NCBI GenBank assembly: GCA_947184155.2
Contig: CAMXCT020002002.1
Coordinates: forward strand, 424,941 to 488,940
From: Cladocopium goreaui
Lineage: Eukaryota; Sar; Dinophyceae; Suessiales; Symbiodiniaceae
Direction of reading: 5' to 3'
DNA: 64,000 nucleotides
This document shows, one piece after another, positions 10,887 through 64,000 of this stretch. The notes beneath the pieces are model-generated. The model searched no databases, had not been told where the DNA came from, and was given only the letters and a program-made list of their open reading frames with translations. Within the stretch, counting starts at the first letter, position 1; every line of letters begins with the position of its first letter. The position numbers and the translations under genes were made by a program.

Positions 10887-10917
<31 letters not shown>

Positions 10918-11003
10918 CACACATACATACATTCATACATACATACATACATACTGACTTAACATAACACAACATAACATAACATAACATTACATTACAT
11001 ACA

Positions 11004-11034
<31 letters not shown>

Positions 11035-19267: not shown

Positions 19268-19270
19268 TTT

Positions 19271-28505: not shown

Positions 28506-29655
28506 CTCCACCACGTTCTCCCAGTTATAGGACTGCGTGTCCATGCAAAGCTTCCTCCTTCTCCGCTGTCGTATCAGCAACTAGTGGCGTTATTAGGTTT
28601 GTGGGAGCGAAGACCTGCCCTGGGAACCCCTTGCCGTGCTCAGGCTGCTGTGCTCGCATTTAGTCTTCCGACAGCCTTTCGAGCACCATAGGAGTGGACA
28701 ACATCAGTAAAGGGAGAAGTCTTTGATCTCGTACAGTGCTCCCAGCGGATCTATACGGGAGAGGCAGCCAACACATCGCAAGCTCCTCATTCTCGGGTTG
28801 ACCGGCCGAAGAGATGGGCGCAGTGGATCTTCTCGATGAATAACCTGTGGCAAGAGGACTCCCCTATGCCAGATCGACCTCTCACTGTACATTGCAGTGG
28901 ACTGGGAGGCGGACTGCTAAGCCCTGATCATGAATACGACCTGTTCTTCCAGAACCATGCGCAAATGAAAGTGTATGGCCCTTCGCTGGCAATGACGGAT
29001 GACTGGGAGCAGCACATCACCCAACTCGGGTTGACTAAAACAACGCATGAGTATGCAATCCACCAGCTTCTCTCCACTGCAGTGGGATGGGGTGCATGGA
29101 AGGAATTTCTGCCGGACAGATTTGCGAACCTCAAGCTTTTGATCACCCGTGCTATACGGCTGTTGACGGCTGCTACCATACGGCCGGCACATGCGAGACC
29201 TCCTCACCCTACATGGGTCACAGCGGTTCGTCAAATCTTTAGATGTTACCATCCACAGGGCAAACTGCTGTTGGTGCGGGCGTGTTTCCCCCATCTTGTG
29301 ACAGCTTCCATCCCAGACGGCATAAGAGACATTGATGTTCTTGGATTCTCGGCTGGATCATACACTGGACTGGCTCTCCACAAAGTGCTCAATGAATTCG
29401 GTTGCTTCCCAGGTACCACAAAGGTTGCTGCCATTGCTACTCCACCAGAAATGTTGAGGCTAGCAACTGGGGAACGAAGAGTTATTCTTCTCCACTGCCT
29501 TGAAGATCGACTCTGCGTGTGGCGTCCGACCACCCTTACAGACCTCAGCTATGATGTCGTACTCATTGATGGGCAGCCTTCCTGGGGTGGCAGAGCGCGA
29601 CATTCTTATGGGCATCTATTGTTTACATCAATTGAAGAAGGCACCTATCATATTG
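28506..29655 (+). pseudogene. C-type giant-protein copy, hydrolase region, interrupted by copia
   Basis: It begins at HHVLPVIGLRVHAKLPP, equivalent to 59630 in the better copy. After several stops there is a clean frame from 28836 to 29655: HCSGLGGGLLSPDHEYDLFF, GFSAGSYTGLALHKVLNEFG (GxSxG nucleophile elbow), VAAIATPPEMLRLATGERRV, ILLHCLEDRLCVW (acid strand) and RARHSYGHLLFTSIEEGTYH (candidate catalytic His). It stops dead at the copia insertion (TSD TATTG 29651-29655) and resumes in frame at 52628. The fold resembles an alpha/beta hydrolase; the substrate is unknown. It lacks the glycosyltransferase-like N-terminus. Confidence 0.7.
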
Positions 29656-30469
29656 TGCGAAAATCCAACAGGACCTAATTACAACCACTAGTCGCGCTCC
29701 TAACGTCGCAAGGGGTCGGCTTAACTCCGCGTCGAGCGTTTAACAAATTAAACACGAATTCCCCAAAACACGACAACTTCACTGCGAACTCTCAAATCCT
29801 TTTTCCACACAGGAAAACACGAAGGCAAGTTGTCTGTCATGCACATGCAGCATGTTATAGTTGGACTTCTTCTGTTTCAGCTGCTTTGCCTTTGCAACAT
29901 GCAACGGCGGCGGTAGACAAACATCATCAACATGTTGGTGAATTCATTGGTGATGAATTCACCATCTTTCCAAAAATAAATCTGCTTCACTTCCATCTTC
30001 TCTTCAAACGCACTATTTGCACGAAGTCCAAAAACATCCAAACTGTTGACAAAAATAGTTGGCAGCTTCCGAAAATAAAACGCATCATGCAGAAAACAAA
30101 TCCAGTCAAGGTTGTGGTTGAAAACGCATGCACATGTGTTTGAAAAACAACGTTGAGCTTGTTCAGAAAGTCGTCGATACCAAAAATCATCTCCAAATTC
30201 ATTTGCAGTCCAGTAAAACTCATTGCAAATGAATTTCCATCACAAAAACATTCTTCTTCTCCACCAAGTTGACGAAAAACATTCACATGCACATAAAACG
30301 CATCTTCACGGTATTGTAACCAATTCCAGTTGTTCTCAAACCATTCTGCATCAATTTCAGAGTTCTGCCCAAATAAACCATTGACAACATCATGTTGTAG
30401 CCACCATGCAAGTTACCTCCAGAAACGTAGCACATGCAGTCCATATGCACAGGAGTGTATATTTCCATA
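29656..30469 (-). repeat. 3' LTR of the copia element
   Basis: 814 bp, the intact LTR. On the minus strand it begins TATGGAAATA immediately after the polypurine tract and ends GGATTTTCGCA against the TATTG duplication. It matches the 5' LTR in three blocks (49998-50210, 51354-51807, 52489-52622), with about ten substitutions and small indels. The start with TA instead of the usual TG is fixed by the TSD and the PPT, but could be off by one base. Confidence 0.85.
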
Positions 30470-36100: not shown

Positions 36101-36319
36101 TGACCTAGCAACATCTGGAGACGGAGACGGAGACTTTGGTGACACTTTCGGAGACGCTTTAGGCAATGCAGGTCCATCAGAAGTAGATGCACGAATTGGG
36201 TCTTGTCTGGCAATCTTCAATTCACCTGGCTTTCTCGGTTGAGATGGAGCTGACTCCACAGGTCTCTTCTTGGGCATAGGGGCTCGGAAGCCTGGATCAG
36301 GTTCTTTCATTTCTCGCAC
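33173..36319 (-). CDS. Copia reverse transcriptase-RNase H with C-terminal methyltransferase-like domain
   Basis: 1,048 codons opening at GTG 36319. A CPAC...H...C zinc-binding motif is near residue 85. The RT spans about 290-530: VAKDLNKGISARKLGISSPT, LKGLDVSHAFMHSPL (first catalytic Asp) and LLVAYVDDLLLCCQ (YVDD near residue 460). RNase H spans about 650-830: SFSDATFAPYRF, SSCEAELYALQMV, ESDSSSALQLL, KRSRHVEIRMAWMKAK. Residues about 840-1048 add AFVEVCCGTNSALREACKVA (SAM-pocket-like), VHVHASTPCSSGSPL (PC motif) and SFELPRNNNIW (ENV-like position), resembling a divergent C5-methyltransferase. The PC cysteine is present. It would copy the RNA into cDNA in the cytoplasmic particle. It is one base out of frame with the upstream ORF at the TAG/GTG overlap. 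Confidence 0.85.
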   Translation of the reverse strand: MREMKEPDPGFRAPMPKKRPVESAPSQPRKPGELKIARQDPIRASTSDGPALPKASPKVSPKSPSPSPDVARSDVRVFPKTPRCPACDSGMDVPGIRHNAECKRKRAAFEASETPVEMPDVVPNVARPRLEVRHEDMEVETENGPTPVGAGSREVGLSMDTEGSGVKREAEQSVQDLEDEMAAERAAGTQEPMTLDLFHMDNACHALGPVAWCLEQGPENARATSPELFDAELNSIKFAHGKDHQCVKVKLGGSEVLLWKPDEVIDDSSLMQLDVDLGFEGMKEEIGNLEKCGAGRVIGQAEVDALKKKHPLMRVIPSRWVSAYKSESRVRVRIVAKDLNKGISARKLGISSPTPSIEGLHFVLTLAAQRALRLKGLDVSHAFMHSPLPHGLVIVLKLPLSVSMPDGSQAYLLLYKALNGLRDASLHWLNLLSDSIRGVGLTSDEVEPCIYQGVVNGELALLVAYVDDLLLCCQSEKAEKIVEKAIGKAVPLKETGIILPARHGGGRLIFIGRHVHRGIDDDSLTIGVDPKFLDTTFTEFNITKGSASVPDVAGILDKAMGDKNQLQELSPSAYSRFRRALGKLLWMAQSRHDLKLYLSLIGSQQAKPNQGTEAAIRSLLRFLFEDVGTCLRLPSPEYENLMIGPARHSILHSFSDATFAPYRFNGRKGISGGVVFCEGALVRSLARQQQSVSLSSCEAELYALQMVAQESVAFSNFCHRVYTGIGEMREGDVPQILLESDSSSALQLLVGQDIPKRSRHVEIRMAWMKAKISSNELLVEHRAGTDNVADLFTKCLGTKDFLRHRTSLGFETPEVPMQDLHRVRDVMLINSRVDHKQDVAFVEVCCGTNSALREACKVARMPYIGIVKRMETPDMFQKVKEFVEVHQQLGYRWVHVHASTPCSSGSPLKNFSATIESEADRSWKGIMENVSKYLLLGNSRSFELPRNNNIWKREETKRVLKQCGLQFDAEVFLCQTGMQAPNGLPIGKVLIFCSASAGFCNLLTRRFGWCECEKHAGMYDVNWTATGVYNKELAKAILAAVRAGRKDP

Positions 36320-45183: not shown

Positions 45184-45566
45184 TTTTTGTGAATCCTCAT
45201 GAAAATGTTTGAGGAACCCTACCCACCCACACCTTGAATGGTAGAAGTTGCGGTAAGATATAACTTAACATCATGAAAGGTTGATGCAAGTGACGCAACA
45301 AATGATTTGGATTGATCACATTGTGATGACTGACTGAATTGGCAAAAAATGTGTAAACATTTCAACATGCCAAACACTTGATGTCACAGATGTTTGTGAT
45401 TTAAGAGTTGTCTGAAGATACTTATGTCAGATCGAGTCAGACAATCTCTAGAGAAAATGCCAGATGCTTGAGCAGCTTTTTTGTGAGCTTCCGCTTACCG
45501 AGTAAGCAACACAAAAATTTGCTTGCTTTGGAAATAAGGCTTTCATCTTCTTCGAAGAGTTTCAGC
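45184..45566. repeat. Split direct repeat B2 (383 bp)
   Basis: Second copy of B1. It forms the right outer end on the plus strand (5' end in coding orientation) and abuts copia sequence at 45567 without any duplication. Confidence 0.9.
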
Positions 45567-48500
45567 ATCAATTCTGACAGCACCTTGCACAACTGGTCCC
45601 GTATCCAAACCTGAATGCACAAATGCAGCTTCAATACTTCTCGTCTCATTCGGTGATTGGGCTCGCATGCTGCTGGGCAATTCGGCAAGGACAGTTTGAC
45701 CAAACATTGCAAAGGAAGGTCGAGACAACTTCCGTTGTGTGGAATATTCCAATGGAGAAAAGTCAGTTCCATGAGCTTTGGAAAAATGGTTGTGGCTCAA
45801 TGCAATGTAGGTTGCAACATCTTGCAGTCCACGTGCAGTAAAACAGACATCAGCACCACCTTGGTTCATCTCAGCACGCAACACAGCAAGGGATTCCTTA
45901 AGTCTTCTCACAGCTCGTTCAGCTCCTCCATTGCTTTGGTGTTGTTGAGGTCGTGCACGGCGAACCAAGAAGGTATATTTGTCAGAACTGGTTCCAACTA
46001 ATTCAGAAACTGCACGCTCGGCATCAGTATGCAGGACGACCGACGAAGTCGATGACGCAAGACCGAAGTGGTCTAACCATTTTTGAATTAAACTCTTCAC
46101 CGATCTTGCTTCTGGTCCCACAACAACATAGCCCACACAGTTTGTAGACAATTCCGTTAAAGCCAAAATCTTGATAGTTCCGTCTGCTTCGTCCTCAACC
46201 AATTCTCCACGAGTGGTTAGAAAACCAAAATCGGCTTGTACCTCAGTCTCAAGCGCGCCTTCACGACGGCGTCGATGTTGAAAGGTCGATTTTCCTCGTG
46301 CACATATTGTGCACCTTGGATCATAAGGCACATGTCCCTGCAACCTATGGGCTTCAAGCGCAGCTTCTGCCGCTCTGCTCAATGGATTCAAATTCCCATG
46401 CACCGCATGCAAACCCTCTGACATGATGAATTCATCATCATGCCGTGCAGATCCATCAGAATCACTGTACATCCATGCAGGGTCAAGTTTAACCCATGGA
46501 CATCCACCAAAGTTGCAAATGTTGTCAAGTCTCAGACCTGACGCAAGATGAGTAACCTCGGCACCTTCTGGATTCTGATTGAATTCCCATCCGCACTCAC
46601 AGAGAGTGTTGGTTGAAATGATGTTGTGGCTGATGCCACCAACCAAGCACTTCAACTTTGCCTGTCGGTACACTGGGAATCTTCCCAAATTATCATTTTT
46701 CTTCTTGAATCCAACCCAAACAGAAACAGTAGTTGATCCATCTATGTTCACCTTACTGCCATTTGCCGCTCGGAAGCGGTCACTTTGTGAATTAACAACC
46801 CATGCACCATACGTCACTCTTGACGCAGTGGCCATAACAGTTGCAGCCGCACCGGAGTCCAGTAACCACCAGTGCTGGCTCTCATCACCCATCATGATTT
46901 CTGAAAGCAATGGATGCAAAACAGGTGAGTATCTATGCAGTTCAAACTCATGAGAAACAGTATCTTGCACGTTCAGAAAAGTCGAAGTTCCAACTGTTTG
47001 CAACTGAATTCGATGACAGTTTGAAGAAATCAAGTCTTGGGAAACCTCAGCATCACCTTCTACCTCTACACCTTGCAAACCATAATCAAAGGCCACCGGA
47101 CGATGTAGGGCTCCATGCAACGTCCCTGAACTGTCAGTGGTCCCTGAAAGGTCGGTGTTTCCTGCTGAAAACATGCCACACAGCAAATTGGAATCTACCT
47201 GTGGTGTTGATTCATGCAACCATCCAAAGTTTAAATTCCAAAGTTGACACGTTTCCGTTTCCGTTTCACTGTCACTGTCATCAAACTCGTCTCCAAACAT
47301 GGTGTCCATGACAACCGAACATGCAGATTCACTGTCAGAAAATGGAACGAATTCTCCACTGATGAAAAACTCAGGTTCAGAAATAAAACATGCTGGTGGC
47401 AACCTGTTGAAAAAGAGTTTCAGTCTCACGTTTCGAAGTTGGCAGCACTCTAAGTTCGCTGCAAAATCATCACTAATAGTCATGCAGTTTTGACACGTGC
47501 AGAAAAGTCGATTCGACTCTAAACACTGCAAACCTGCAATTGAGACATGAAAAACAGTTTCATCGGTTGAAAAATGACTGCAAACATCGTCAAAAACGTC
47601 TGAAATTTCAGTTTCAAGTGTCAAACCTGTCGAAAAACCTGAAAACATCTCGGAAATCAAGGGACTCAGCACTAAGGATTGGACACCCTGAGTCGTTCCA
47701 CCTGCACTCGCACTCTGCTGCTGATCATCCGTCGCAGGCCAACTCCAAGATTCGTCCCAATTCTCCTGTCCTTCTTGCCACGTGCAATCCCAAGATTCAT
47801 TCCAACTGTCATTCCAGACCTGTGCAGTTTCATACCATGACTGGTCCTCCCACCAAGAACCATCGTCATGCCACCACATGTCCGCACTGTCCCATTCTTC
47901 ATCGTATCCTACTTCGTTCATTTTTCCTTTCTTGCCAAAACCTTTACCTTTGCCTTTGCCTTTCTTCCCTTTCTGCTTTCCTTTGCCCTTAATTACTCCT
48001 TTTCCTTTCTTTCTCTCTGGGCAATTTGCAGAAATGTGGCCAAATTTCTGGCATTTGAAACACTTCAGTTTTGACAAATCAACATCACATGCATTTGAAC
48101 TGTGTCTCCTACTTCCACAGGTACCACATCGCACACCCCCTACTGCATCTAAATTCCAGTTTCCATCACCGTCACTTGCAGACATATCATATTGCACAGT
48201 GGATTCATCTGAACCTTCCACCTGGGTGACCTGGTATAGATTTTTCTTGGGGTGGAACTCAGCGAAAGCACGCTGCTGCTGTTCCCATCTCAGTGCTGTG
48301 GCCCTAAAAGCTTGGTACGACTTACCTCCAGTGTGATGCAAACAAAACGTCCTGACTGCTTCAGGCAAACTACGTAGCAAAACAGCTACCAAGTCAGCTT
48401 CGGCTACATGCAACCCTGTGGCATCAATTCTACTTGACAGTGTTCCCAGCAACTTAGAATACCTGGCCATTTCAAAGTCTATCTTTCTGATTGTATCTGT

Positions 48501-49952
48501 CACAATCGTACTTGCACTCGTTTCGTTTCCATGCAGTGCAAAAGACTTTCCTGCCAATGCCGTTCTAAAACTAAGTGCCTCACTCCTCGTCCTGATGCTG
48601 TACTCCAGGGTCAGCTGTCTCACCAGCTCAAAGCCATTCGAAGCTTGCAACTCTGCATTCACACCAACATCCGCATTGCACAAGTTGATTCCTTCACTGA
48701 ATGCATTGATCAACGTCAAAGTTCTCGGGTGATTTCCAAATGCACTTCTCAAAATAGCAAGCAACCTTCTGCTTCTTGCACGTTGCGGCACAGCTAATTG
48801 ATTCCAGTGCAACGGATCTGGCCATCTACAGGCATGCTCGATTTCACTTCCGAACTCAAGGCTGGCTTGCATCGCCCAGGCTGTTAAATCATAGATGTAA
48901 GCTTGCCACCCTAGGATTTCTGCTTCTCTACTGGTCCACTTTGCACAATCCGGTGTTGGAGGCGTTCCCAACCATTTCTCACTTTTAGCAAATACGTCAC
49001 CTACGTATTCCCCGGATGTTCCTGGTACGTGCATTGGATCCATACTCTGAGGAAACCCATTTGTGGCCCTTTGTCCAAACATCTCAGGTACACCTCTAGC
49101 CTGGCCAACCTGTTCACCTATCACCTGCCTGACTTGCATTAACTGCATCGGTTCCAAACCTCCCATCAGCCTCAGCACATCTTGCAACCTTTGATTCTGG
49201 GGTGTTACTACGCCAATGTCCTGTCCCATGCACATGCCTCCATTTTGACCTTGTCCTACCTGACCTTGTCCTCCTTGACTTGGGGCACCACCGCAATGAC
49301 CTGACATCCATGGCATTCCATAACATGCACTCCCCTGTCCTGGTTCCTGACTTCTACCTGTGCTAGCTTGGGCACTTTGACCTGCAGTTCCCATACAACC
49401 TTGTCCTGGCATCCCTTGTCCGTGCAGACCTTGTCCTACCTGACCTTGTCCTGTCAGACCTTGTCCTCCTTGACCTTGTCCGAACTGACCTTGTCCTAAC
49501 AGACCTTGTCCATGCACACCCTGACCTGGATACCCTTGACATGCAGTACAACCACTACATCCATGACCTTGACATCCCAGAAAACCCTGGTTTTGACTGT
49601 AGTTTCGTGGGTCCATCAAACCACCACGCATCGGTCCATATGACCCAAAAGTATTCCATGCAGGAGGTAGCATCTGTCCAGTTCCAACTAAGCTTCCAGC
49701 TTGACCAACTAAGCCCGGAGCCGCTTGTGTCGCTGCTGTCCCAGTTCCTACTGCTGCTTGCGTGTTGCCTTGCATCGCAGTACCTGTGGGCGAATTACCT
49801 GCAGCACCTGTGTTTCTTTCTACGCCTTGCTCACCTCCTCCTTCCATTCTGTTCATTGTTGGCGACCCTACTGGTCCTACATGCAGTGAGTTCATTCCTA
49901 GCGCACTTCCTTGGCCATTAGGTCCTTGTCCCTGGTTACTTCCTGGCATCAT
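45567..49952 (-). CDS. Copia Gag-protease-integrase (5' part, interrupted)
   Basis: 1,462 codons up to the insertion. Residues about 1-260 are rich in GQG repeats. The Gag core is about 330-600. A first C-x2-C finger (CGTCGSRRHSSNAC) and a canonical knuckle CFKCQKFGHISANC lie at about 608-643, followed by a KGKGK basic tract and a Trp/Asp/Ser-rich region. The protease signature WWLLDSGAAATVMA is near 1028. Integrase: HRLQGHVPYDPRCTICARGK (HHCC-type finger, about 1200), VQADFGFL (first Asp, about 1236), HTDAERAVSEL (second, about 1306) and GGAERAVRRLKESL (Glu, about 1342). The domain order is diagnostic of Ty1/copia. The frame is broken after Asp 1462 by the YR element and continues at 36579. 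Confidence 0.9.
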
Positions 49953-49997: not shown

Positions 49998-50210
49998 TGC
50001 GAAAATCCAACAGGACCTAATTACAACCACTAGTCGCGCTCCTAACGTCGCAAGGGGTCGGCTTAACTCCGCGTCGAGCGTTTAACAAATTAAACACGAA
50101 TTCCCCAAAACACGACAGCTTCACTGCGAACTCTCAAATCCTTTTTCCACACAGGAAAACACGAAGGCAAGTTGTCTGTCATGCACATGCAGCATGTTAT
50201 AGTTGGACTT

Positions 50211-51348
50211 CCCGCCGGACCGGAAACCGTTCCCATAAAACGCACATTTTTAAAAAAAAATGTGATTTTACCACAGTGCCGTGCTGATTTGATGATTGGA
50301 AATCCTGGAAAAACTTGGGGCGCGTTTTTTCGTTTTTCAGCGTCATCGCTGCAACGCATGCGTAGTAAACAGCTGGCAGTCAGCATTCTTGTGAATGCAT
50401 CTCCATTGCCAAGCTCTAGCATACACCATCAAGAGGTCACTTTTGGCACTCAAGTTGCTGGGAATTGACTTTTTCATCAGATTCCACATAGAATCTATGG
50501 TGCCAGTGTGGCAGCTGAGATTCTGCGGGTTTCTGGTAACCTTTTTGAAAAAGCTACCCTGAGAGTGACTGACTTGTGCCAACAACACATCACATTCGGA
50601 TGCAATGCGGCTGTAGCATTTTGCAACATCAGTCATCAAAACTGTCTTTTGTCCATTCAGCTTGGACATGAGAAAATTTAACGCGCCTGCTCGCTGGATT
50701 CGAGCATAAGATTCTGGAGGTGGTTTGCCATGAGACTCACTACGTGCCAGAGATCTCAGCAGCGTAGCAACATGTAACGTAGTAAACGATCACAGAGATC
50801 TCAGCAGCGTAGCAACATGTCACGTAGTAAACGATCCCAGAGATCTCAGCAGCGTAGCAACATGTAACGTAGTAAACGATCACAGAGATCTCAGTAGCGT
50901 AGCGACATGTAACGTAGTAAACGATCTTAGAGATCTCAGCAGCGTAGCAACATGTAACGTAGTAAACGATACCAGAGATCTCAGCAGCGCAGCAACATGT
51001 AACGTAGTAAACGATACCAGAGATCTCAGCAGCGTAGCAACATGTAACGTAGTAAACGATCTTAGAGATCTCAGCAGCGCAGCAACATGTAACGTAGTAA
51101 ACGATACCAGAGATCTCAGCAGCGCAGCAACATGTAACGTAGTAAACGATACCAGAGATCTCAGCAGCATGGCAACATGTAACGTAGTAAACAATCCCAG
51201 AGATCTTAGCAGCATGGCTATATATCATGTACGAAGTACAAGGAACGTTAACATGCCCCCCCACCCCACCCCACCCCACCCCACCCCACAATCGCGATAT
51301 TCAAAAACGTGCGTTTTACGGGAACGGTTTTCGGTCCGCAGGCATAAA
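50211..51348. mobile_element. Non-autonomous TIR element with internal satellite
   Basis: Terminal inverted repeats of about 36 bp: the left end CGGACCGGAAACCGTTCCC and the reverse complement of the right end CGGACCGAAAACCGTTCCC, followed by [A/G]TAAAACGCAC[A/G]TTTTT on both. The 5-bp flank GACTT is present on both sides (50206-50210, 51349-51353) and once in the empty 3' LTR. There is no transposase ORF. The long minus-strand frame at 50740-51291 is only the 45-bp repeat (15 codons per unit). Confidence 0.8.
50749..51240. repeat. 45-bp tandem satellite, ten units plus a partial
   Basis: AGAGATCTCAGCAGCGTAGC starts at 50749 and recurs every 45 bp up to 51199, with alternating spacer types (GATCAC, GATCCC, GATACC, GATCTT). 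It is wholly inside the TIR element. There are no unique spacers, so it is not a CRISPR array. Confidence 0.95.
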
Positions 51349-51807
51349 GACTTCTTCTGTTTCAGCTGCTTTGCCTTTGCAACATGCAACGGCGGCGGTA
51401 GACAAACATCATCAACATGTTGGTGAATTCATTGGTGATGAATTCACCATCTTTCCAAAAATAAATCTGCTTCACTTCCATCTTCTCTTCAAACGCACTA
51501 TTTGCACAAAGTCCAAAAACATCCAAACTGTTGACAAAAACAGTTGGCAGCTTCCGAAAATAAAACGCATCATGCAGAAAACAAATCCAGTCAAGGTTGT
51601 GGTTGAAAACGCATGCGCATGTGTTTGAAAAACAACGTTGAGCTTGTTCAGAAAGTCGTCGATACCAAAAATCATCTCCAAATTCATTTGCAGTCCAGTG
51701 AAACTCATTGCAAATGAATTTCCATCACAAAAACATTCTTCTTCTCCACCAAGTTGACGAAAAACATTCACATGCACATAAAACGCATCTTCACGGTATT
51801 GTAACCA

Positions 51808-52622: not shown

Positions 52623-54485
52623 TATTGACCACCTCCAGATAACGACCCCTGAGGTCATACCACATGGAGTACTGAGGAGGTACACTCATTAGTCTCCAGG
52701 ATCACAATACTTTCCAAAGCTTGAATTAGATTCAACGAGCTCCCCCCTGCCCCCAAGACCAATGTTGATACAAACATAAACGTGAAAAATCGAACGCGCC
52801 GGTGTGCGATCAATCTAAGAAGCTTCTCGCTTGCACAACATCCAATATTAAAATTCTGGGGCAAGGGGATACACATAGAGTAAAGATGAAATCTAAAGCC
52901 AGCAGCCAGACTACTGACGCAGTAGTTGCTGAATGGCAATCTGCCTGTGAGACACATGGATTTGCCATTCTCTCTCAAACATTGAGGTCTGTGCTAATGC
53001 TTCCGGCAACATGAGCAAGCATCAACCCGCCCGGAAAAGACTCAAGAAAAGCACGCTGGCTGCCAGTACTCTAACATGCTGTGTTTTCATATGTACAAAC
53101 CTCGAACAAACTCGGAATACACGTCCCATCGGACACTTTACAATGGCAGGAACACTTCAAGTGGCAAAGCTCTGGCATGCTGGTTTTTCATATGTACAAA
53201 CCTCAAGCAAACCTTGTTCAAACCTCAAATCTATGGGGCCGGACGATGCCAGCAGGTGCGACAGGATTTTAAAGGAAAGTTCAATTAATTTCTTTTTTTT
53301 GCGCGCGGCAAATGTAGGTTTCGTCCGCTGCCTAGAATTGAGGTTTGATTGGGGTTTGTACAATGAAAACACAGCAGATCGAAGGTGTGGTCATGGCATG
53401 GCTTTCTCCAATAGAATGCGCAGCACAGAGATGTTTTCAAAGTATGCCTGGAGTTTGTACATATGAAAACACAGCACATCGAAGGTGTCACCAAAAAGTG
53501 CTCATTCCTCAGTGAAATGAGCTGCGCGCAGACATTAACAAGATTTGTTTGGGGTTTGTACATATGAAAATACAGCAGAAGGAAGAGGAACAAAGCATTG
53601 CAAACAAAAACGACAGGTAAAGAACAGATGATCAAGACGTAGGGGGAGCGAGCTGCATGCAGATCCGCCTGCATGGATTTTTGCGGTGCAAGCATGCAAC
53701 TCCAACTACATAACCTGAAAGCAAATCCAAATCATTGACACGCTTGTCGCCAAATTTCGTAAAGCCCATGATGCCACGCCACAGCATGACACTTTCAAGA
53801 CACCGAAACAAGCTTCTCCAAACCCCAGCAACTTTGGAGACACTTGGAAGTACCTCTGCAGTACGGTGCGAGAGGCTCCTACGAGTGCTCTCATGGGTTA
53901 GCTTTGATCTCCCTGACCACTGCAAACGGACCCTCAGCTCACTTCTGCTGCTGGCCAGGGATGTGCGGATCTGCATATGGTGCCATGGGATGACAGGGAT
54001 GTCTGTGACAATCCTATTGCCACAGAGATCTCCGACAAATCCTGATTGACATGATCCCAATTCCTGGGCAGGCGAATGCAGAAGGTGGAGCCCTTATGCG
54101 AAACCTGCTTATTATTTTGATCCTGCCCAGGACTGGCCGCGACCTATTGACGAAACCATGACTATGGCAGTTGTGCTGGAAGAGCTGGCCTTCTTAGGTG
54201 ACACCAGAAGCCGACATGAACTCCGAATATTTGCACAAGCTAACCAGTCGCGCTTACCCCTGACGATGGGCATTGTCCAGCCCATGGCCAGCGAACGCAA
54301 AACACAGCTGACTGCATTAGTCAGAATCTTGAGCCGCTTCCTTACACCAGCTACAGTCCCTATGGCAGAGGCCTATGATAGCTACTATCGGGAGTATCTC
54401 ATCCCACTGGCAGCACACGGCGATGGACACGTGCTCACGGTCACAATTGCCATGTTGTTGGCTATCCTTGTGAAAAATCATCCTA
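52623..54485 (+). pseudogene. C-type giant-protein copy, continuation after the copia
   Basis: After the second TATTG the frame of 28836-29655 resumes: DHLQITTPEVIPHGV to 52671, then (after the TA-flanked element) RCERLLRVLSWVSFDLP from 53864. This matches 60768-60890 of the better copy. A large internal deletion follows near 54110. The frame then reads FDPAQDWPRPIDETMTMAVV, ELAFLGDTRSRHELRIFAQA, NQSRLPLTMGIVQPMASERK and AAHGDGHVLTVTIAMLLAIL, ending at TAG 54494-54496 just before the expected helicase Walker A. It is a truncated copy that lost its helicase. Confidence 0.75.
52672..53861. mobile_element. TA-flanked TIR element, 1,190 bp
   Basis: TA is present on both sides (52670-52671, 53862-53863) where the intact gene has one. 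The ends are imperfect inverted repeats: CTGAGGAGGTAC...GTCTCCA and, reversed, CTGCAGAGGTAC...GTCTCCA. The size and TA target suggest a non-autonomous Tc1/mariner-type element. Inside, the 19-mer TGTTTTCATATGTACAAAC or a close variant occurs near 53082 and 53185 in one orientation and near 53353, 53451 and 53552 in the other. No transposase is encoded. Confidence 0.7.
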
Positions 54486-55697
54486 TGTATAGCTAGCGTA
54501 GCGATCTTGTGCTTGTACTTAGGTAGTTGTTAGTCGCTTTGTGGTTGTAGTTTGTGGACTTGCGTAGTTTGGACTTTGTTTTGTAGTTAGCAGGTGATCG
54601 TGATGTAGTTAATCGATCTTATCTCATTCCGTCACAAAGAGTTGTGACGGAGTTGCCATTTTTCGTTTGTAGTTAGCCGTTTTTAGGTTTTTTGCACGTT
54701 GTAGGTTATTCCACACGAGAACCAAACTGCACGAAACCAATCTTAGGTTTTTGCCATGTAGAAGTTTTTTTTGCACGTGTCTAGATTTGTAGAATCGTTT
54801 CTGGAACTGCTATGACCCAACGTAAACGTTGGCTCAAGACCCGCGAGTTCGAAAAGGGTGAGTGTGTCGCCGTGAGACGGCCTGGGAAAGTTGACACAGA
54901 CAGAAACGCGAAACGACCACCGTTTGTTTGTGTTTTAGTTGGGTTTACTTTGTGCACGAGAGGTTTGAAAGCGGTTTTCGCGATCTAACTTTGTGTGTCA
55001 AAGTTTTGTGGTAGCGGAGCTTGTGTGCTCCCTCGATCTGGCACGCCTGTGTGCGTCTTGTGTGTGCCTGGTTCCAGCGAAGTTGGTGTGAGTTGCGTTT
55101 GACTGTCGTGTGTTTGACTTCGAGGTGTCAGAAATCCCTCACCTTGAGGATGCAGGACGTGAAAAGACGGTAACTATACTAGATGGTCTGCCCGTTCAGA
55201 GATCAGTCAAAGTCGATTAGAGTGCAACAGTTGGGAATGCTTGTAATACTTTGTTTATGGTATTTTTCCATTGCACTCATGCAGGAGGTGTCTTTGGTGA
55301 GCATGAGGTCTTTTGCCACGATGACCGATAGAGGGCCTGCAATTGGTTGTGTGCTCAAATCAAAGCACCGGATTTCTGATCTTCATCAACGCTTCCATAT
55401 GCAAGACAAGTCCCATACTAGCTAGATTACCGGACCTGTTAGGCCTATGTTGTCACAGACAGGCTCTACAGCACTCGTCTGCAGCATCTGCATGGCTGTT
55501 ATGCATAATCTGTGCTGTCTGGCATGTCCATGAGACCATGCAGTACTTATTCCATCTGTGACCTGCGCAGCAATTCTGGCTCAACTATCGAGGGTCAGAC
55601 CTTCTGTTGACAGTTATACTTTTAGTATGCCCCTCATCATCCTTCTTAGCCCCTGCTTATACGAGTTTTGTGTTTCAGTCATAAGTGCGAGGCCTCT
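54486..55697. other. Non-coding stretch upstream of the Ubl/ankyrin ORFs
   Basis: G/T-rich at first (GTAGTTAG-type words). A strong hairpin CCGTCACAA-AGAG-TTGTGACGG lies at 54629-54650. No protein-like frame was found. It could hold the promoter and leader of the downstream ORFs, but no conserved motif was identified. Confidence 0.45.
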
Positions 55698-55715
55698 CTG
55701 GCTAAAGACTGTCAG
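55698..55715 (+). repeat. Hairpin motif copy 1
   Basis: CTGGC-TAAAGACT-GTCAG. The 5-bp stem has a G-U pair at the variable position. It is followed by a pyrimidine-rich tract and then, 32 bp on, the start of the ubiquitin-like ORF. See the four copies at 57325-57879. Confidence 0.6.
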
Positions 55716-55746
55716 GGTTGCCTCCACCCCCTTTTTACGGGGTAAG

Positions 55747-56011
55747 TATGCGACTCCGTGTCCGCCATGGGATCCTTGGTGAAATTGCCCTGACGATTGA
55801 GGTCTCAGAACCGACAACTCTGGGATGGGATATCATGAAACAGACGGCGATGAAGCTTAGGTTGGATTCACCCTTCCAAGTGGTCCTCTACGCAGACAGC
55901 TCGTCAATAATCCAGTCGCCACTCAGGGCTGTTCAACTTGACACTGTTACAAATGAGGCAACCCTATGCTATGTAGTTCAATCAATGCAAGTCCCATCAG
56001 CACAGCAATAT
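55747..56011 (+). CDS. Ubiquitin-like N-terminal domain ORF
   Basis: 88 codons from ATG 55747 (MRLRVRHGILGEIALTIEVS), ending at TAA 56012-56014. The alternating hydrophobic pattern of the first strands, a central helix (DIMKQTAMKLRL) and FQVVLYADSS suggest a ubiquitin-like beta-grasp fold (inference from pattern, no diagnostic Gly-Gly). It is in the same frame as the ankyrin ORF that starts 6 bp after the stop, so the two were probably one Ubl-ankyrin protein. Such pairings are common in Symbiodinium-type genomes in my recollection. It may be an adaptor or scaffold. Confidence 0.5.
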
Positions 56012-56020
56012 TAAGACCTC

Positions 56021-56866
56021 ATGACAGCCATTCATCACAAAGACGTGATGGATGTAAGCTATCTTCTTAGCAAAGGCTTGGGCCTTATGGACGTGGCGAC
56101 GGAGGGAGGGCATACCAGCACTTTAGTAGCTTCTGCTATTCTTCGAGACCATTCTGCTGATCCGTATGCTTGCCAGCCTACAGCTGGCCACTGCTTCCCT
56201 CGATATGGAGCCAGTTTAACGTATCTACTGCTACAAGCCCAAGCTGACCCCAATATTATCCCGCCCACAAGGCCACCTACCACCATGTTAGAATTAGCAG
56301 TTGAGCTGGGCAGCTCACAGCTTGTTCAAACTTTGCTTGAGGCTGGTGCCTCGGTGACACCCGTACAAGGAGCGCTACCACCTCTCTTCCTTGCTGTCCT
56401 TCATCGGCACAGGACGAATGTGCAGTTGCTCCTAGACGCACAAGCGGACCCGAGGCAGGAGATTCCGATTGCTTCCGTGCTTTGCCATTCATTGCAATGG
56501 TATGGTCACCCTGCCCGAAAAGAAGTCTTCAACGCTGTACAAGCTGCTGCTGCGCAAAGTGCTGAAGACACGGTCATTGATATGCTACAGCAAGGGTGTG
56601 GCGCCGTAGACGATTGCAGAAGTGAGCAGTCTTCGCTGTCGCGAGTGGAACCCACAACTCTGACAGATAGGGCCACCGCAATCATGAATCGAACTGTCTG
56701 GAAATACCAACATATCATTGAGAAACAGTCTCGACAAACAAACTTTACTACATTTCGTTGGCGCAGAATACTTGAAGGACTGTACTTACCAGAACGATTA
56801 CGAAATGAGCTGCAATCACCCCCGGATCTCGACCGGGAAGCAGCACTCCTGCACCAAATTGACTAG
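56021..56866 (+). CDS. Ankyrin-repeat protein (C-terminal part of Ubl-ankyrin gene)
   Basis: 281 codons. Ankyrin repeats are visible at residues about 7-40 (DVMDVSYLLSKGLGL), 60-84 (ASLTYLLLQAQADPN), 86-117 (TMLELAVELGSSQLVQTLLE, AGASVTP) and 118-147 (PPLFLAVLHRHRTNVQLLLD, AQADPRQ). The rest (about 150-281) is helical without a known motif and ends DREAALLHQID. Ankyrin repeats mediate protein binding. ATG 56021 could be a start, but in-frame continuity with the ubiquitin-like ORF across one TAA makes a premature stop, or two genes, equally possible. It lies 1.1 kb upstream of the giant gene on the same strand. Confidence 0.65.
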   Translation: MTAIHHKDVMDVSYLLSKGLGLMDVATEGGHTSTLVASAILRDHSADPYACQPTAGHCFPRYGASLTYLLLQAQADPNIIPPTRPPTTMLELAVELGSSQLVQTLLEAGASVTPVQGALPPLFLAVLHRHRTNVQLLLDAQADPRQEIPIASVLCHSLQWYGHPARKEVFNAVQAAAAQSAEDTVIDMLQQGCGAVDDCRSEQSSLSRVEPTTLTDRATAIMNRTVWKYQHIIEKQSRQTNFTTFRWRRILEGLYLPERLRNELQSPPDLDREAALLHQID

Positions 56867-57952
56867 TGGTGTGCCCTAGATGAACCTTTTCCCAGTGAGA
56901 GGCTGGCACCAGGTCAAGGCTGTATTCCGGCCTATTTGAGATCCGAGAAGAAAATGAACGGGCAGCGCACACACAGTCGCATCTCTCAGTTGAACCATGA
57001 TGTCCTTCAATAGGCAAGTTTTGTGTGCTCAGCTACATTGCTACCGCTTCCGGCGTCTCTTTGGCTCAAATGCAAAGCAGCAGACAGACCAGCTGTCTCA
57101 GCATAGTTCCAGAAAAAGGAAATATAGAGCACCTCGGGGAGGGATTCATATCACTAACCTTTCCGATTCTCAGACAAGGGTTCTGCTACAGACTTTTATT
57201 GTCACACCACAGTTTATTTCCTGATTTTTCGTGCATTAGGATCTAATTTCGCGATAGTGCCCCTTGCTACGTTACATCCCTTACCTGACTCATCTTTCTC
57301 CGTCCCATTTGGCATCTGGTTTCTCTGGCCAAAGACGTGCCAGGGCTACCAGTGCTTCTTCCACCACCCTTTTCCCCCCTCTGATTGGTTTGTGTGTGGT
57401 TTCTTCCTTTTCTGCTCTTTGGTTCGGAGTGCCTTGCTCCCTCCCTTTCTCTCTTCCGTTCTTCTTGTTCACTCTTGTGCCTGGATTTTCTGACTAAAGA
57501 CTGTCAGGGCTTCCAGCTTTTATTGATCCCTTTCTTCCCCCCCTGATTGCGCCTGTTTCCCCACTGCTGCGTGCGCCGCCTGACTCGACTGCCGTGTATT
57601 TATTTGTGGGTTCGGGCTTTCTTGCTTATCCTACTTCGTGTCAAGGTGCTTGAACTGCCTGGCCAAAGACGTGCCAGGTTTTTCAACACTCTACCCTTCC
57701 CCCCTTCTCTGTTGTTTTGTGTGGTTTGGTTCGGTGTCCGTTCTCTTTTTCTGTGTGTTGGTTTCCGTTTGTTTGTTTTTCTGTGTTGGTGGTCTTGCTG
57801 TGTGTCCTCCTACTCATCTTTGTGTTTGCCATTCAATACTGATTGAAGTGCTTGAGTCTTCTGACCAAAGACGTGTCAGGATTCTCAACACCTCCCCCCC
57901 ACCCCACTTTACCTCTACACCCTGAACAGCTACGCAGGAACTGCACAGTGCG
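56867..57952. other. Pyrimidine-rich intergenic region with four hairpin copies
   Basis: From about 57240 it consists of repeated blocks: T/C-rich run, an 18-19-nt hairpin, then a run of Cs (CTTCCCCCC type). This could be intergenic spacer, a leader or a degenerate tandem array. The short frames here (for example 57264-57497) are just pyrimidine-run translations. Confidence 0.5.
57325..57879 (+). repeat. Four hairpin motif copies with compensatory changes
   Basis: 57325-57343 CTGGC-CAAAGACGT-GCCAG; 57490-57507 CTGAC-TAAAGACT-GTCAG; 57659-57677 CTGGC-CAAAGACGT-GCCAG; 57861-57879 CTGAC-CAAAGACGT-GTCAG. The fourth stem pair is G-C in two and A-T in two, so both arms changed together while the AAAGAC loop stayed constant. 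Spacing is about 165-200 bp, and each copy is followed by a C-rich run. Confidence 0.7.
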
Positions 57953-60733
57953 ATGTCTCTGCTTTCCAGAGAACAAGTTGTGAAATCCTGGTATGCAAAG
58001 AACCCTAACGTCAGCTTCTTTGATTTGCTCTTTGCGCTTGAACAGCATAAGAGCATTTCGACTGAGTATGGGCTGAATGTATCCATTGAGCAGCACTGGA
58101 GGCTTGGAGACCCCCATAAGAAGACCGCTGCACCAGATCGACATGACTATGAAATTGCAATGGTAGGTGGGAGAGAAACCTTACCTGGGCCTGACTGGCA
58201 TAAGTTGTACCGATGGTTGGTTAGTCAAAGCCCTGCTTTCTTGCCTTACCACACGGTATATTTGGTGACGGACAATCGGGATTTGCAATCTGATAAGGTC
58301 AAGTCTGAGCCTGGACTCAGTCATTGGCCAATGGTCGCTGCTTGGTGGAAAGAACGGTTACGCTATGTCGGCCCATATGGAGAACTCACCACAGTTGTCT
58401 TTGTCCACATTTCAGCTGACACTGGTCTCCATAAGGTACACCCGACATGGGCAGGGACGTACATCCTTGATGCGTGTGTGTTCCTCTTCCCGGCCATCAA
58501 CTTTGCATTGATTGACAGCGATTGTGTGCCAGTGACTCTCCTCGAGATACGGGAACTTTGGCTGGCGAGCACTGACCCAACCCATTCAGCTGCATCAAGC
58601 ACAGTTGTCAAGAGCAAACTATCAAGCCCCATTGCGTCATCGCACAAACGTGCGCGATCTGTGGACACGGGAAGGGACATGCAGCAGCCTGGTCCACCTT
58701 CGAAGCTGTCTAGATCGCATAGCGCGGACCATCTTGCTGTTCGAAAAGCAGATCCACTGCGAGCCCCTCCGTTCACCTACGGTGCCAATTTGGCAGACGA
58801 AGTAGACTATGGTGATTCGCCAGACCCGAGTCCCCGAATGTCTCGTCGAGTGACGTCCAGCAGCGATGACTCTTCCCCGTCTGGGTCAGCTAAACCCACT
58901 CGGAAGGACAAAGCAGCCGTGGATGAAACTGCCACTGCGCCTAGGCCCAAAGGAGTCATCCTTGTGAGTGAGGCTTTCACTGAAATCAATGCTGGTCTGG
59001 TCATTGTATTGGCTTCGGGTCATGAGAGTCCTGTACCTGTTACTGTCTTGGAGGACCCAGACACAGATCCTGACGAAATTGCCCGCGTTATTACCATTGC
59101 TTACCACAGACATGTCGAAGCCTACCTAGCTACTACATATCCACCTGCAGATGTTGAGAGAGCAGTCGCTAGTGGATTACTTGGCTCTCCTCTGCTTGGC
59201 ACGTCCACACGGGTTACTGCAGATTGGTGCCATGCGTGGAGCTTGCTAGGCCAGTGGTCTGGACTAGTTACGTTTCCTGTCCCAGCCTCTGGAGTCTGGC
59301 CGCGCCATGGTCATTTACGGAAGATCCTTGATGGCTACCAAGGCAGGCAACCAAACTTCCATAAATGGGCTAGGCCCGCCTACGAGCAAGGGGCCCTTCC
59401 GACCCTTAGCCTGCTGCCCGGCGAGGTCACTGTACGAGTGCTACCAGGAGACAAGATGTACCAAGCCATGGCAATCGAGCCACAGTACATGCGGCCTGTT
59501 ATCCTTCATGGATTTGGCACCATTGCCAAGAAAAGAATGCCGAACAGTCTCGCTGACCTCGCCCAATTTGGCTGGTTGCCGCTGGCTGCTGCTTTATTTG
59601 GCACGAATGAATGGAAGCCCCAATGGCTACATCACAATTTCCTTCCAGTGGTTGGACTGCGGCTGCATGCCAAAGTGCCACCTCCCCCTCTCTCCCAAGC
59701 CCAACTGATCTTGCTGTGTGGATTGTGGCAACGAAAGGAACAATCGGAACCCTCATGTACATCGCTTCAGCAAGCAGCTCTCCTGAAGTTTGGTCTTCCG
59801 TTACCTTTCCGAGAAATGGCTAAATGGGAAATCACTGTCAATAAGCAGACTATAGATGTTGGAGAACTGTCCAAACAACGCTACATAGGAAGACAACCCG
59901 AAGCTGAGATGCCTGCTACACTCAAGGACTCGGTTGACTGGGCATCCTGGGTCTTTTCCCTTGCAGAAGTCTGGCAAGATGACGCCCCGATGCAAGACCG
60001 ACCCCTTGAAGTGCATTGCAGTGGATTAGGAGGTGGCCTGCTTAGTAGCGAACACGAATATGATATTTTCCTGCAAAATCTTGCGCAAACAAAGGTGTAT
60101 GGCCCATCGCTTGCGATGACAGACAATTGGGAAGAACATATCACCCAATTGGGCCTTACCAAAACAGTGCACGAATATGCTGTGTACCAGCTCCTTTCCA
60201 CTGCTGATGGATGGACAGCTTGGCGTGATTTCCTCCCTGAACAGTTTTCTGATCCACAGCTGCTGCTCACGAGAGCGATCCGCCTCATTGAGGCCGCGAC
60301 CATCCGGCCAGCCCACTCCAGGCCACCACATCCGACCTGGTCAACCGCGATTATGCAGATCTTCCGTTGTTACCATCCACAAGGGAAACAGCTTTTTCTG
60401 AAGTCATGTTTTCCACACTCGGTCACTACAGGGGACAACAGAGTGAGCAGGGACATTAACGTGTATGGTTTCTCGGCAGGGTCCTATACGGGCTTAGCAG
60501 TCCACGAGATCCTGAGTGAATTTGCTGCGTTCCCTGGCCTCACTAAAGTTGCTGCGATTGCGACGCCGCCAGAGATGCTGCGACTTGCCACAGGCGAACG
60601 CAGAGTCACACTGGTGCACTGCCTGGAAGACCGGCTATGTGTGTGGAGACCTGCTTCTCTGACTGAATTTAGCTATCAGGTTGTTCTTATAGAGGGGCAC
60701 CCCACTTGGAGTGGGCGTGCCAAACATTCCTGG
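57953..60733 (+). CDS. Giant multidomain protein, part 1: glycosyltransferase-like and hydrolase-like
   Basis: ATG 57953; the frame as read ends at TGA 60751, but a 2-nt deletion near 60731 marks the true junction. Residues about 1-200: SFFDLLFALEQHKSIS, FLPYHTVYLVTDNRDL, GTYILDACVFLFPAINFALI and DSDCVPVTLLEIRELW, where the DSD after hydrophobic strands resembles a GT-A DxD motif. Residues about 205-320 are Ser/Arg/Pro-rich and disordered (SHKRARSVDTG, SSSDDSSPSGSA). About 320-650 is of unknown fold. About 680-930 is alpha/beta-hydrolase-like: VYGFSAGSYTGLAVHE (GxSxG), VTLVHCLEDRLCVWRP (acid strand) and GRAKHS (His). Homologues at 28506 and 52623 confirm conservation. Enzymatic roles are inferred from motifs only. 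No membrane anchor is visible. Confidence 0.75.
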
Positions 60734-61766
60734 CCACTTGCTCTTCATTGACCTTGACGAAGGAGTCCACGAAATCCAGAGGCTACAAATCACCACCCCG
60801 CAAGTTATTCCACATGGGGTACGGTGCGAGGGATTGCTGCGTGTACTCTCATGGGTTAGCTTTGACCTTCCTGAGCACCTTAAGACGACTCTAAGTGATT
60901 TGCTAGTAGCAGCAGGAGAAGGGAACATGGAGCTACAGAATATACCCATCGGTGGACGGGACATACGGGATGGTCAGCCTGAAACGGAAGCTGACCTACA
61001 AGCAGCTCTGATTGCGATGATCCCCACACCGGGAGGCTCCCACGATGAGGGTGGGTTGCTGGTTCGCAACCTACTGGCGGAATTCCTGCGTGGGTTCTCA
61101 TTACGAACCCTCATCTTCCTACTGGACATGGTTCTTCCGCAACTAGACGCTTACCATGTGGGACGGCAGCTCCAGCATCTCCAGCCCTGGGTCAGTGTGG
61201 AACTTGCGCAGCAGAAGAAGCGAGGACAAACAGGAACACGCTTGCAGCTCACCTACCAATACGAGGCTTATGCTGGGTTTCATGTTGTTCACCTACATAC
61301 TGATGGTGCCCCGCTCCTGCTGTTTAGTGCACCGTCGGATGTTCCAATGACCTCGCCGCGAGAACTCTGCGAGGCTGGGAATCTAGGCAACTTAGAAGCC
61401 AATGTGATGGCGGGCAGAGCATTACTGGGTGTCCTCCAGTTGCCAGATACTCAGCATCGGTGTGTCATAGTACTTGTACATGAAAAGGTGATGTCTAGCG
61501 GAACCAGTAAGAACCCTGCTCAGCGAGCTATCAAGCGCATTGCCCCGAAGTTGCTGGAGGTCGTTATCGTCTCGCTACCCATTGCTCGGACCTTTTGTGG
61601 GCGGCTCTTGGACCAATATCTCAAAACAATGGGTTACTTTGATCCTGCAAAGGACTGGCCGAAACCCATCGAAGACTTTGCGTCCATGACCGTTGTATGG
61701 GAGGAGCTAGCTTTTCTGGGAGACACACGCAGCCGCCATGAACTCTTAGTGTTTGCGCAGGCTTAA
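60733..61766 (+). CDS. Giant multidomain protein, part 2: linker to helicase
   Basis: It continues part 1 one frame over, after a 2-nt deletion near 60731: the copia-split copy has CATTCTTATGGGCAT where this has CATTCCTGGCCAC. It reads GHLLFIDLDEGVHEIQRLQI, GVRCEGLLRVLSWVSFDLPE, RTLIFLLDMVLPQLDAYHVG, HRCVIVLVHEKVMSSG and VVWEELAFLGDTRSRHELLV, ending at TAA 61764-61766 in GCTTAACC. The paralogue at 54249 has GCTAACC, so a single extra T creates the stop and the real protein continues as NQSRLPL. No known domain is recognised in this part; the homologous block is well conserved. Confidence 0.75.
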
Positions 61767-64000
61767 CCAGTCGCGCTTACCACTGGCCATGGGCATCGTG
61801 CAACCGCATATACCTGTTCGCCGCATGGCCAGCGAGCGCAAAACGCAGCTGACGGATGCATTAGTCAGAATATTGACACGGTTTTTGACACCAGCCACAA
61901 TATCAATGGATGGGGCCCATGACAGTTACTACTGTGAATATCTCCTTCCTTTAGCAGCCCACGGTGATGGACATGTCTTGACAGTTTCTATTGCATTGTT
62001 ACTGGCCATTCTGACAGGAAGATCTGACTTATGTATTGCCGGGGTTTTTGGTGCTGGCAAAACGCGGTCCCTTGCGGTCTTGCTCATTGCCCTGAGCTGC
62101 GAACTCAAGGAATTTGTTGCCATCATCTATACGAAAGAAAATGTAGCTGCCAAAGCACTTGCGGATCAATTGAGTGATCTCGCGCCCCCCACCATCAAGA
62201 GCTTTGGTAGGCTCATTGGACGCATGGAGGAAGGCAAAGGTGAAGCATATGCCTCCAAGAGTGACGTTCGATGCAGTGATCGCAATAGAATCATCGCTCA
62301 CAAGAATGTCCTCATTGCAACAGGTGGCTCGGCCACGGCGGAAATGGCGATGCGTTACTCCAGCTTTGGTCATTGGATCTCTCGCACCTGGCTTGCCTTC
62401 ATGGATGAAAGTCAACAGTATGGCAACTACCATGAAATTGCAGCTCTCGCTGCTATTCAACAACCAACCCTAACTGTTTTCATTGGTGATCATAGGCAAA
62501 CCCCAGGCGGATTGTCAAAAGGCCGAGCAGCTGCTGTCAATCGTCGCAAACTGTTGCAACGGCCGTTAGGGCTCCGAGCACTTGATAAGTCAGGAGACTA
62601 TCTCCCGCCGGCACGAATGACAGCACTTATAGCGCAGCTTTGGCCTGATGCGAGCCAAGATCCGGAGTCTGATCTCTTCAGTTTGCTGCGCCTTGCAAAT
62701 AAGTCGCATAGTGGCCCATGGACATCCACTCCGCAAGACTACGAGCTGCCTGCTGCCCTGGGGCGTGTGCTTCACAGCCGAATCTCGTGCCAGCTGGATG
62801 CACACAGCAGCCTGGTTGCGGCAGCTCTAGCAGTCCTGCTGATTGCCACAGCACCAGAGGAATTTGGAGTACCTGAGTGCACCACAACCCTTGAGGCTGC
62901 AGGGTTATGTGGTCCTCACCGGTGGGGTATCATTCTCCCTAACAGCTCACGGGTCTCAATGCTGACTTACCAAGCTATTGTTGCAGTTCGATATCCTGAG
63001 TTAGTCCTCCACGAGCCCAATCACATCTACATTGGACACTTCGTGCCACATGAGTCCACTGTGGCACAAGGAGGCTTCCGGACAGTACTGTGGAAGGCAC
63101 CTAAAGATCTACGAGCTGCAGTCGAGGACGTCGTTGCTTTCTGCACTTATCTGAAGAATTATTATCGCAACTTGCAACAGGGAGCGACCTCGCAGCTGCT
63201 TGTCCTATGCAATCGTACGGCGGTGCACAACTTGCTGCTCCAACATGGTTTCCAGTCCGCGTGGTATGGTGGGCTTAGAGTCTCCACCACTTCCTCTGCC
63301 GCGGGAGCAACAGCACGCATTGCGGTCATTGTTCAAACAGGCGTTGGGTTTCTAAGTGGAGGACGTCGGGATGCAACAGCAGATGAGCGCGAAGACTGCT
63401 ATGGGAGAGCAACTGTAGCGCTCACAAGAGCCATTGAACATACCTATATTGTTTCGCCTCTTGATATGGCAGGCATGATTGGCATGGCTCAGACACTAGG
63501 AGTGTACCATTATGGCTACTTCACTCTGAAAGGCCGCGACATTCAGTACCATGGCCCTTCACAATATCCCAGTGACAAAAGTGCCATACTGGACTGGGGA
63601 TTGGTGGACCCATTTATTTCCCAAGATAAACCCCCCCTTGCTATTGCCATGATAGTGACCACCAATGGCACGCGAGTGTGGCGACGATATCGGTTGGTTG
63701 TGGCATGCAGAGACAAGCTACGGCTACCCCCTGATGTCCTTGCAGCATTAGAGTCCCGCACACGTGATCATGTGCTGACGACCAGCGGGTTTTTCCCCTG
63801 CTCGATTGATCGGGAATACTTGTATGGTTATGCTGCTGATGGGTATAGATCACCTCTCTGGATCTGTGCAGCCTATAATGGGTCCCCAGCACTTGTTCAT
63901 CGACATCGAGGCCACAAGGTCTTTTTTCACGTGGGTATACAGGATCGGCAACTTGTCGTAATACCGGGTATCCACTACTTCGATGCCCATCGGTTGCAAC
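61765..64000 (+). CDS. Giant multidomain protein, part 3: UPF1-like helicase, runs off window
   Basis: Read in full codon by codon: open from AAC 61765 (first ATG 61789) to the window end with no stop, more than 740 codons. Motif I GVFGAGKTRSLAVLLI (62041), Ia-like VAIIYTKENVAAKALADQL, motif II AFMDESQQYGNYHE (62398), motif III TVFIGDHRQTPGGLSKGRAA (62473), and motif V/VI region VIVQTGVGFLSGG then RATVALTRAIEHTYIVSPLD (63409). DESQQ and GDHRQ fit UPF1-like superfamily 1B helicases, which translocate on RNA or DNA with ATP. A C-terminal domain follows (PPLAIAMIVTTNGTRVWRRY, SGFFPCSIDREYLYGYAADG, VIPGIHYFDAH). The relic at 20427 suggests about 50 more codons beyond the window. Confidence 0.85.

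Follow-up and report, generated by a model that had tools for sequence, protein, structure and literature searches.

A probable giant LINE of about 34 kb with relict spliced leaders and a multi-gene 3' part in the dinoflagellate Cladocopium goreaui

Results

A 64,000-base stretch of the genome of the dinoflagellate Cladocopium goreaui (GenBank assembly GCA_947184155.2, contig CAMXCT020002002.1, here C2002:424941-488940), called the window below and the source of all positions given without a contig, ends in a giant open reading frame (ORF) that very probably forms the 3' part of an autonomous giant non-long-terminal-repeat retrotransposon, or long interspersed nuclear element (LINE), of about 34 kb. 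To find copies, we searched the organism's own assembly (1.17 Gb, 6,202 contigs). Read from the genomic copies, poly(A) runs, target-site duplications, 5' truncation, and a spliced leader demonstrate copying through RNA, and the predicted reverse transcriptase (RT) is demonstrably part of the same unit, which has common ends and maintained genes.

The 3' end is constant. All 10 copies that we compared end at one point 2.7 kb past the giant ORF, share the closing sequence there, and finish in a run of A's, beyond which the DNA differs; three additional copies with this end bring the count to 13 of 13 read, each with at least six A's and with unrelated or varied flanks. The upstream ends of some copies vary, as in 5' truncation. 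The window holds such a truncated copy on the forward strand (55136 to 64000, ending at C2002:493170, equivalent to window position 68230). Its poly(A) lies 4.2 kb past the window end, the insertion measures about 13.1 kb, and a perfect 16-bp duplication flanks it on both sides (55120 to 55135 on the left, forward strand; after the poly(A) at C2002:493171 on the right). A truncated copy on contig C3413, nested within another copy, has a 14-bp duplication, and the copy on C583, with both ends present, has a perfect 20-bp one; duplications were absent from C3591, C5965, C3323, C6131, and C3335, where both junctions were read. Poly(A) and duplications, which the earlier sequence-only reading of the window had proposed looking for at the copy ends, are thus present. 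Measured from spliced-leader start to poly(A), three copies extend end to end over 34,076 bp (C6131), 33,970 bp (C3335), and 36,191 bp (C583). A comparison of the C6131 5' untranslated region (UTR) with the C3413 3' region gave no long terminal repeats, with matches of at most 40 bp, the significant ones at hairpins. Two candidate structures were rejected: the start of C3591 as the element's 5' end, which is a truncation, and an inverted RT segment adjoining the C3413 copy as a product of twin priming, since its identity of 83 to 89%, against 98% for the plus-strand part, and the insertion junctions assign it to an older neighbouring copy.

At the other end, three copies align from one shared 5' point. 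This point and three further 5' ends start with CCGTAGCC or a variant, followed by (T)TTGGCTCAAG; the dinoflagellate leader is given in the sections of the literature that we consulted as DCCGUAGCCAUUUUGGCUCAAG (PMC6616646, PMC6050394). After the first relict come one to three more before the element's own bases begin, giving two to four tandem units at six of six ends. The innermost relict is common to five of the six, as expected if it is inherited. A 10-base leader core at 57060 was not accepted as a relict, as it lies within the leader of the giant ORF. Separately, locus L025 (contig C4535) has a spliced-leader relict at positions 4870 to 4888, after which another leader-like stretch precedes sequence unlike the giant LINE; the relict perhaps marks a host retrogene or another element.

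The sequence-only reading had found no RT encoded in the element. That statement does not hold for a contiguous copy on C1842, in which an RT ORF lies upstream of the giant ORF, and the window copy lacks it because of its 5' truncation. In C1842 (ORF lengths measured stop to stop), the end of one ORF is followed by an ORF of 2,027 codons, by ORFs of 135, 167, 284, 258, 155, and 429 codons, by a ubiquitin-like/ankyrin ORF, and by the giant ORF; some of the small ORFs may not be genes, and those of 284 and 429 codons are paralogues (E = 3e-13). The 2,027-codon ORF matches Pfam RVT_1 at 1.7e-9, over the cut-off, and finds R2 retrotransposon RTs among PDB sequences (E = 2e-4), which qualifies it as a predicted RT of the non-LTR type. 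Ordered endonuclease and RNase H motifs are visible in it; the motifs QETRW, GGDFN, ALDR, and SGH, in this order before the RT, mark a putative APE-type endonuclease. The partial ORF upstream of it corresponds to the C-terminal portion of a 2,271- to 2,272-codon frame (ORF1), present in this length at 14 of 98 scored places and carrying five cytosine-methyltransferase motifs in order; its methyltransferase piece gave no relevant match among PDB sequences. Pieces of several copies thus yield about 10 ORFs in all: methyltransferase-motif, RT, six smaller, ubiquitin-like/ankyrin, and giant. In the window, the ubiquitin-like/ankyrin ORF (55748 to 56866, forward strand, 372 codons, Ank_2) has an in-frame stop at codon 89 and is 94.6% identical to the C1842 version, which matches Pfam Ank_2 at 1.4e-8; the ubiquitin-like part is a putative assignment. 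With one contig per pair, and the giant ORF start set 3,807 bp before the helicase match as in C1842, four of the 10 same-strand pairs (C1842, C5542, C6131, and C3335) have 15,712 to 15,723 bp between the end of ORF1 and the giant ORF. CpG depletion, which is reported for SymbioLINE-Dnmt, was not seen, with values of 0.55 to 0.63 in three element parts and 0.58 and 0.65 in two other window stretches.

The giant ORF itself (57953 to 64000, forward strand, extending past the window) appears in the window as three mutually overlapping frames, A (57953 to 60751), B (60711 to 61766), and C (61753 to the window end). Because homologues span both junctions, we read them as one ORF that a frameshift breaks in each overlap, A/B and B/C. 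The dispersed giant coding unit of the sequence-only reading is confirmed. Its three domains are also supported, with folds that are likely, though not proven. A GT-A-like glycosyltransferase region at 58241 to 59590 (DSD motif near 58508) corresponds to residues 28 to 477 of a model of 58160 to 59809; an alpha/beta-hydrolase-like region at 59627 to 60751 (GxSxG at 60467), extending into frame B, was placed through residues 559 to 936 of P0112, a homologue collinear with frame A; and an SF1-type helicase at 62041 to 63432 was located by Pfam scan and by motifs I to VI, all on the forward strand. Foldseek by itself gave no significant match for the model of either the GT-A or the hydrolase region, a helicase-family profile had no match among PDB sequences, and neither the Rfam nor the tRNA scan found anything in the window.

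Searching the assembly with the helicase part returned 3,586 first-look candidates, of which the best 60 were scored; the former is thus no verified count and the latter are not a random sample. A single open frame of 2,533 to 2,534 codons is present in 16 of the 60, a stop within the matched part in 3, and many copies are 97 to 99% identical. Together with the evidence for copying through RNA, this bears out the suspicion of an amplifying element. In a public protein set (E <= 0.01), the helicase part has 108 relatives and the N-terminal part 28; none of these bears an informative name, and certain clusters represent hundreds of sequences.

The ORFs analysed, named in what follows, are under purifying selection, with multicopy ratios of nonsynonymous to synonymous divergence (dN/dS, mean dN over mean dS between copies) of 0.05 to 0.34. 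The ratio is 0.16 for the 258-codon ORF (6 copies), 0.22 for the 155-codon ORF (7), 0.17 for the 429-codon ORF (5), and 0.34 for the ubiquitin-like/ankyrin ORF (9, one with a stop). Within the giant ORF it is 0.13 over the first 330 codons (11 copies), 0.32 over the last 155 (10), and 0.05 in the helicase (the 5 of 8 loci that passed the filter). The RT gave 0.09 in one pair, C1842 against the older neighbouring copy, and the start of ORF1 gave 0.05 and 0.06 in two pairs and 0.29 in a third with two changes only. Single values are rough, as dS is small (0.03 to 0.09, except 0.41 for the RT).

One kind of hairpin, with a 5-bp stem and the loop YAAAGACG(Y), recurs along the element: at seven sites in the 1.26-kb 5' UTR of C6131, at nine noncoding sites in C1842, and at two in the 3' region of C3413. 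On the forward strand of the window, one with the loop TAAAGACT lies upstream of the ubiquitin-like/ankyrin ORF (55698 to 55715), and the leader of the giant ORF contains four, two with the stem CTGGC/GCCAG (57325 to 57343 and 57659 to 57677) and two with CTGAC/GTCAG (57490 to 57507 and 57861 to 57879). In the remaining 55,135 bases of the window, where the loop word occurs 35 times, there is none on either strand. Shuffling the 18-kb stretch of C1842 by mononucleotides gave a mean of 0.2 sites and a maximum of 2. All nine C1842 sites fall in the 30% of that stretch that is noncoding, 49 to 630 bases upstream of the start codon that follows; no hairpin directly precedes the RT ORF or two of the small ORFs of C1842. 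A tenth C1842 site, with a different stem, lies within the ankyrin ORF. The window has the same loop with the stem CATCA/TGATG inside the start of this ORF (56033 to 56050), as do C1842 and C3413.

Among 18 sites (12 distinct), two stem pairs vary on both sides, in eight cells, a pattern that no shuffle reached; the number of such pairs (two) was itself attained in 137 of 500 shuffles, and the paired share and covariation score are biased because the sites were selected for full pairing. A sequence-based search that allowed mismatches recovered identical sites. The 60 bases after the sites are 58 to 85% pyrimidine, against 51% overall in C1842, and since the 60 bases before them are similar (52 to 85%), the leaders are pyrimidine-rich as a whole.

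Older relatives of the element also reside in the window. A forward-strand fragment of another copy (28509 to 29609) covers the hydrolase region with 63% amino acid identity and continues, beyond an insertion, at 53858 to 54469 (forward strand); dS between this fragment and the window copy is saturated. The insertion or insertions that split this older copy (29656 to 53838) contain a copia-type RT ORF (33173 to 36319; RVT_2, 2.4e-15), a zinc-knuckle/gag-like ORF (45543 to 49952), and 99% direct repeats that resemble terminal repeats (29656 to 29869 with 49998 to 50211, and 29864 to 30322 with 51349 to 51807). A helicase part at 25723 to 27825 (forward strand, about 32% identity) belongs to a distant subfamily and is flanked by a 79% direct repeat (24783 to 25700 and 27595 to 28504); two incomplete subfamily copies with overlapping ends probably account for this repeat. 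Long ORFs of this subfamily (30 to 40% identity, like P0133 and P0076) are found in the window at 25.7 to 27.8 kb and in locus L041 (C2004:60003-63149), and several related giant families may therefore exist in the same genome. A further helicase fragment at 18927 to 20310 is internally inverted, two minus-strand remnants (22400 to 22654 and 23466 to 23584) are 77 to 79% identical to the element's 3' region, a long ATAC-like simple array occupies 10106 to 11086, and a 45-bp unit is repeated in tandem 10 times at 50747 to 51213.

Discussion

We regard an autonomous giant dinoflagellate LINE as the best explanation of these data, and a probable cycle can be outlined for it. The element would be transcribed, host trans-splicing would add the spliced leader to the 5' end of its RNA, and the RNA would be polyadenylated; the element's own RT would then copy it at nicked target DNA by target-primed reverse transcription. 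A full-length insertion would bring the leader into the genome, and the following cycle might place another in front, a re-addition that would explain the tandem relicts. Published accounts mostly explain such tandem relicts by repeated rounds of trans-splicing and retroposition, in the portions we consulted (PMC6616646, PMC6050394). More tentatively, the hairpins in their pyrimidine-rich leaders might be expression signals that allow many proteins to be made from one long RNA, as trans-splice acceptors or through internal initiation; alternatively, they might mark the RNA for element-encoded proteins. The helicase may aid in handling the very long template, and the glycosyltransferase and hydrolase may target host molecules. 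One could go further, with comparable reserve, and picture a single 34-kb, leader-tagged, polyadenylated RNA as a capsid-less, virus-like polycistronic replicon that yields about 10 proteins through hairpin and pyrimidine signals, carries a methyltransferase, a helicase, a glycosyltransferase, and a hydrolase to deal with its long template and with the host, and counts its cycles in tandem leaders.

Several observations weigh against an autonomous giant LINE. The element is known here from genomic DNA alone, and its gene map is stitched together from C1842, C6131, C3413, and other copies, since the middles of the end-to-end copies C6131, C3335, and C583 were not read. Target-site duplications flank only three of the eight copies with both junctions read. 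Three enzyme assignments are motif-based, with Pfam matches under the cut-off: the endonuclease (Exo_endo_phos_2, E = 0.048) and RNase H (RVT_3, 0.03) of the RT ORF and the ORF1 methyltransferase (DNA_methylase, E = 0.024). The remaining 6 of the 10 same-strand pairs have spacings of about 13.5, 16.76, 16.77, 17.8, 25.9, and 33.0 kb. Finally, the number of relicts, which suggests the number of rounds, does not prove it, because tandem leader genes are described as an alternative source in the available part of one account (PMC6616646).

The deviating spacings would also fit two separate units, a LINE with methyltransferase and RT ORFs and a downstream multi-gene or host transcript that was either copied in trans by retroposition or joined to the LINE through read-through, the two being co-mobilised only occasionally. 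The published relative, as far as the consulted part of its description goes, has only the first two ORFs together with conserved UTRs (PMC5890265), and the presence of the RT was checked in a minority of the scored giant-ORF copies. We nevertheless consider two units improbable: four pair spacings agree within 11 bp, three copies run 34 to 36 kb from leader start to poly(A), one of them with a 20-bp duplication, hairpins of a single kind are spread over the 5' UTR, the middle part, and the 3' region, and the extra ORFs show purifying selection. Still less probable is an RNA virus or RNA replicon that became endogenous and was mobilised by a LINE. It would suit the long polycistronic layout, the SF1 helicase with its weak match to viral helicases, and the repeated RNA hairpins, but the RT is encoded within the element, and general Pfam scans of the ORFs, with no search aimed at such families, found no RNA-polymerase or capsid family. 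Among viral contigs, the helicase query had no relative. As for segmental or tandem DNA duplication alone, which the sequence-only reading had named as what would refute its proposal, certain copies are indeed nested or adjacent (C3413, C3335, and C1842); the common 3' end with A's, the differing flanks, the 5' ends at varying points, and the target-site duplications rule it out as the main process and leave it next to no probability.

In the arrangement of its first two ORFs, the giant LINE is closest to SymbioLINE-Dnmt, likewise a dinoflagellate LINE, with a cytosine-methyltransferase ORF before an endonuclease/RT/RNase H ORF (of these enzymes, all but the RT are putative in our element), with target-site duplications, conserved UTRs, numerous intronless copies, and purifying selection, according to the consulted part of its description (de Mendoza et al. 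2018, PMC5890265). That account, the extent of our comparison as opposed to later literature, gives it two ORFs and no poly(A) tails, and in the part consulted mentions no downstream genes, length of about 34 kb, leader, or hairpins. The element described here differs in about eight further ORFs, its length of about 34 kb, 3' A's, spliced-leader 5' end, and hairpins; in view of the two-ORF, tailless description, we do not file it under SymbioLINE-Dnmt, the likeness seen being one of arrangement.

Giant retroelements of other classes are covered, in the sections seen, by a review of giant eukaryotic transposons, among them the Terminons, Penelope-like rotifer elements of up to 40 kb that are also multi-ORF, carry accessory enzymes including an esterase, there of the GDSL type, and leave many 5'-truncated copies (PMC6431247). 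By the same partial account, Terminons differ in RT class, in an RT without endonuclease, and in attachment to telomeric repeats (PMC6431247). Here, the PDB sequence matches of the RT, which in Terminons is of the Penelope/Athena type, are of R2 type, and at 13 dispersed 3' ends we found A's followed by varied flanks and no telomeric-repeat attachment. Dinoflagellate retrogenes, in the parts of the literature consulted, share the relict and tandem DinoSL at the 5' end, seen here at six of six ends, but are host genes copied in trans, whereas the tagged RNA of the giant LINE would encode its own RT (PMC6050394, PMC6616646). The retro-copied gene family proposed in the sequence-only reading thus holds for the spliced-leader-tagged RNA, which resembles that of host retrogenes, and not for the source of the RT.

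Here a LINE attains about 34 kb, and its extra genes are kept under purifying selection. If our interpretation is true, reverse transcription would be able to copy a template of about 34 kb in full length, a LINE may obtain its 5' end from host trans-splicing, and relict leaders in tandem would be a legible record of retrotransposition rounds. Symbiodiniaceae LINEs have been described, in the part of the source consulted, as highly diverged remnants (PMC8045281), in contrast to the many copies of the giant LINE that are nearly identical. A large unnamed family of public proteins would, likewise, be explained as a transposon protein.

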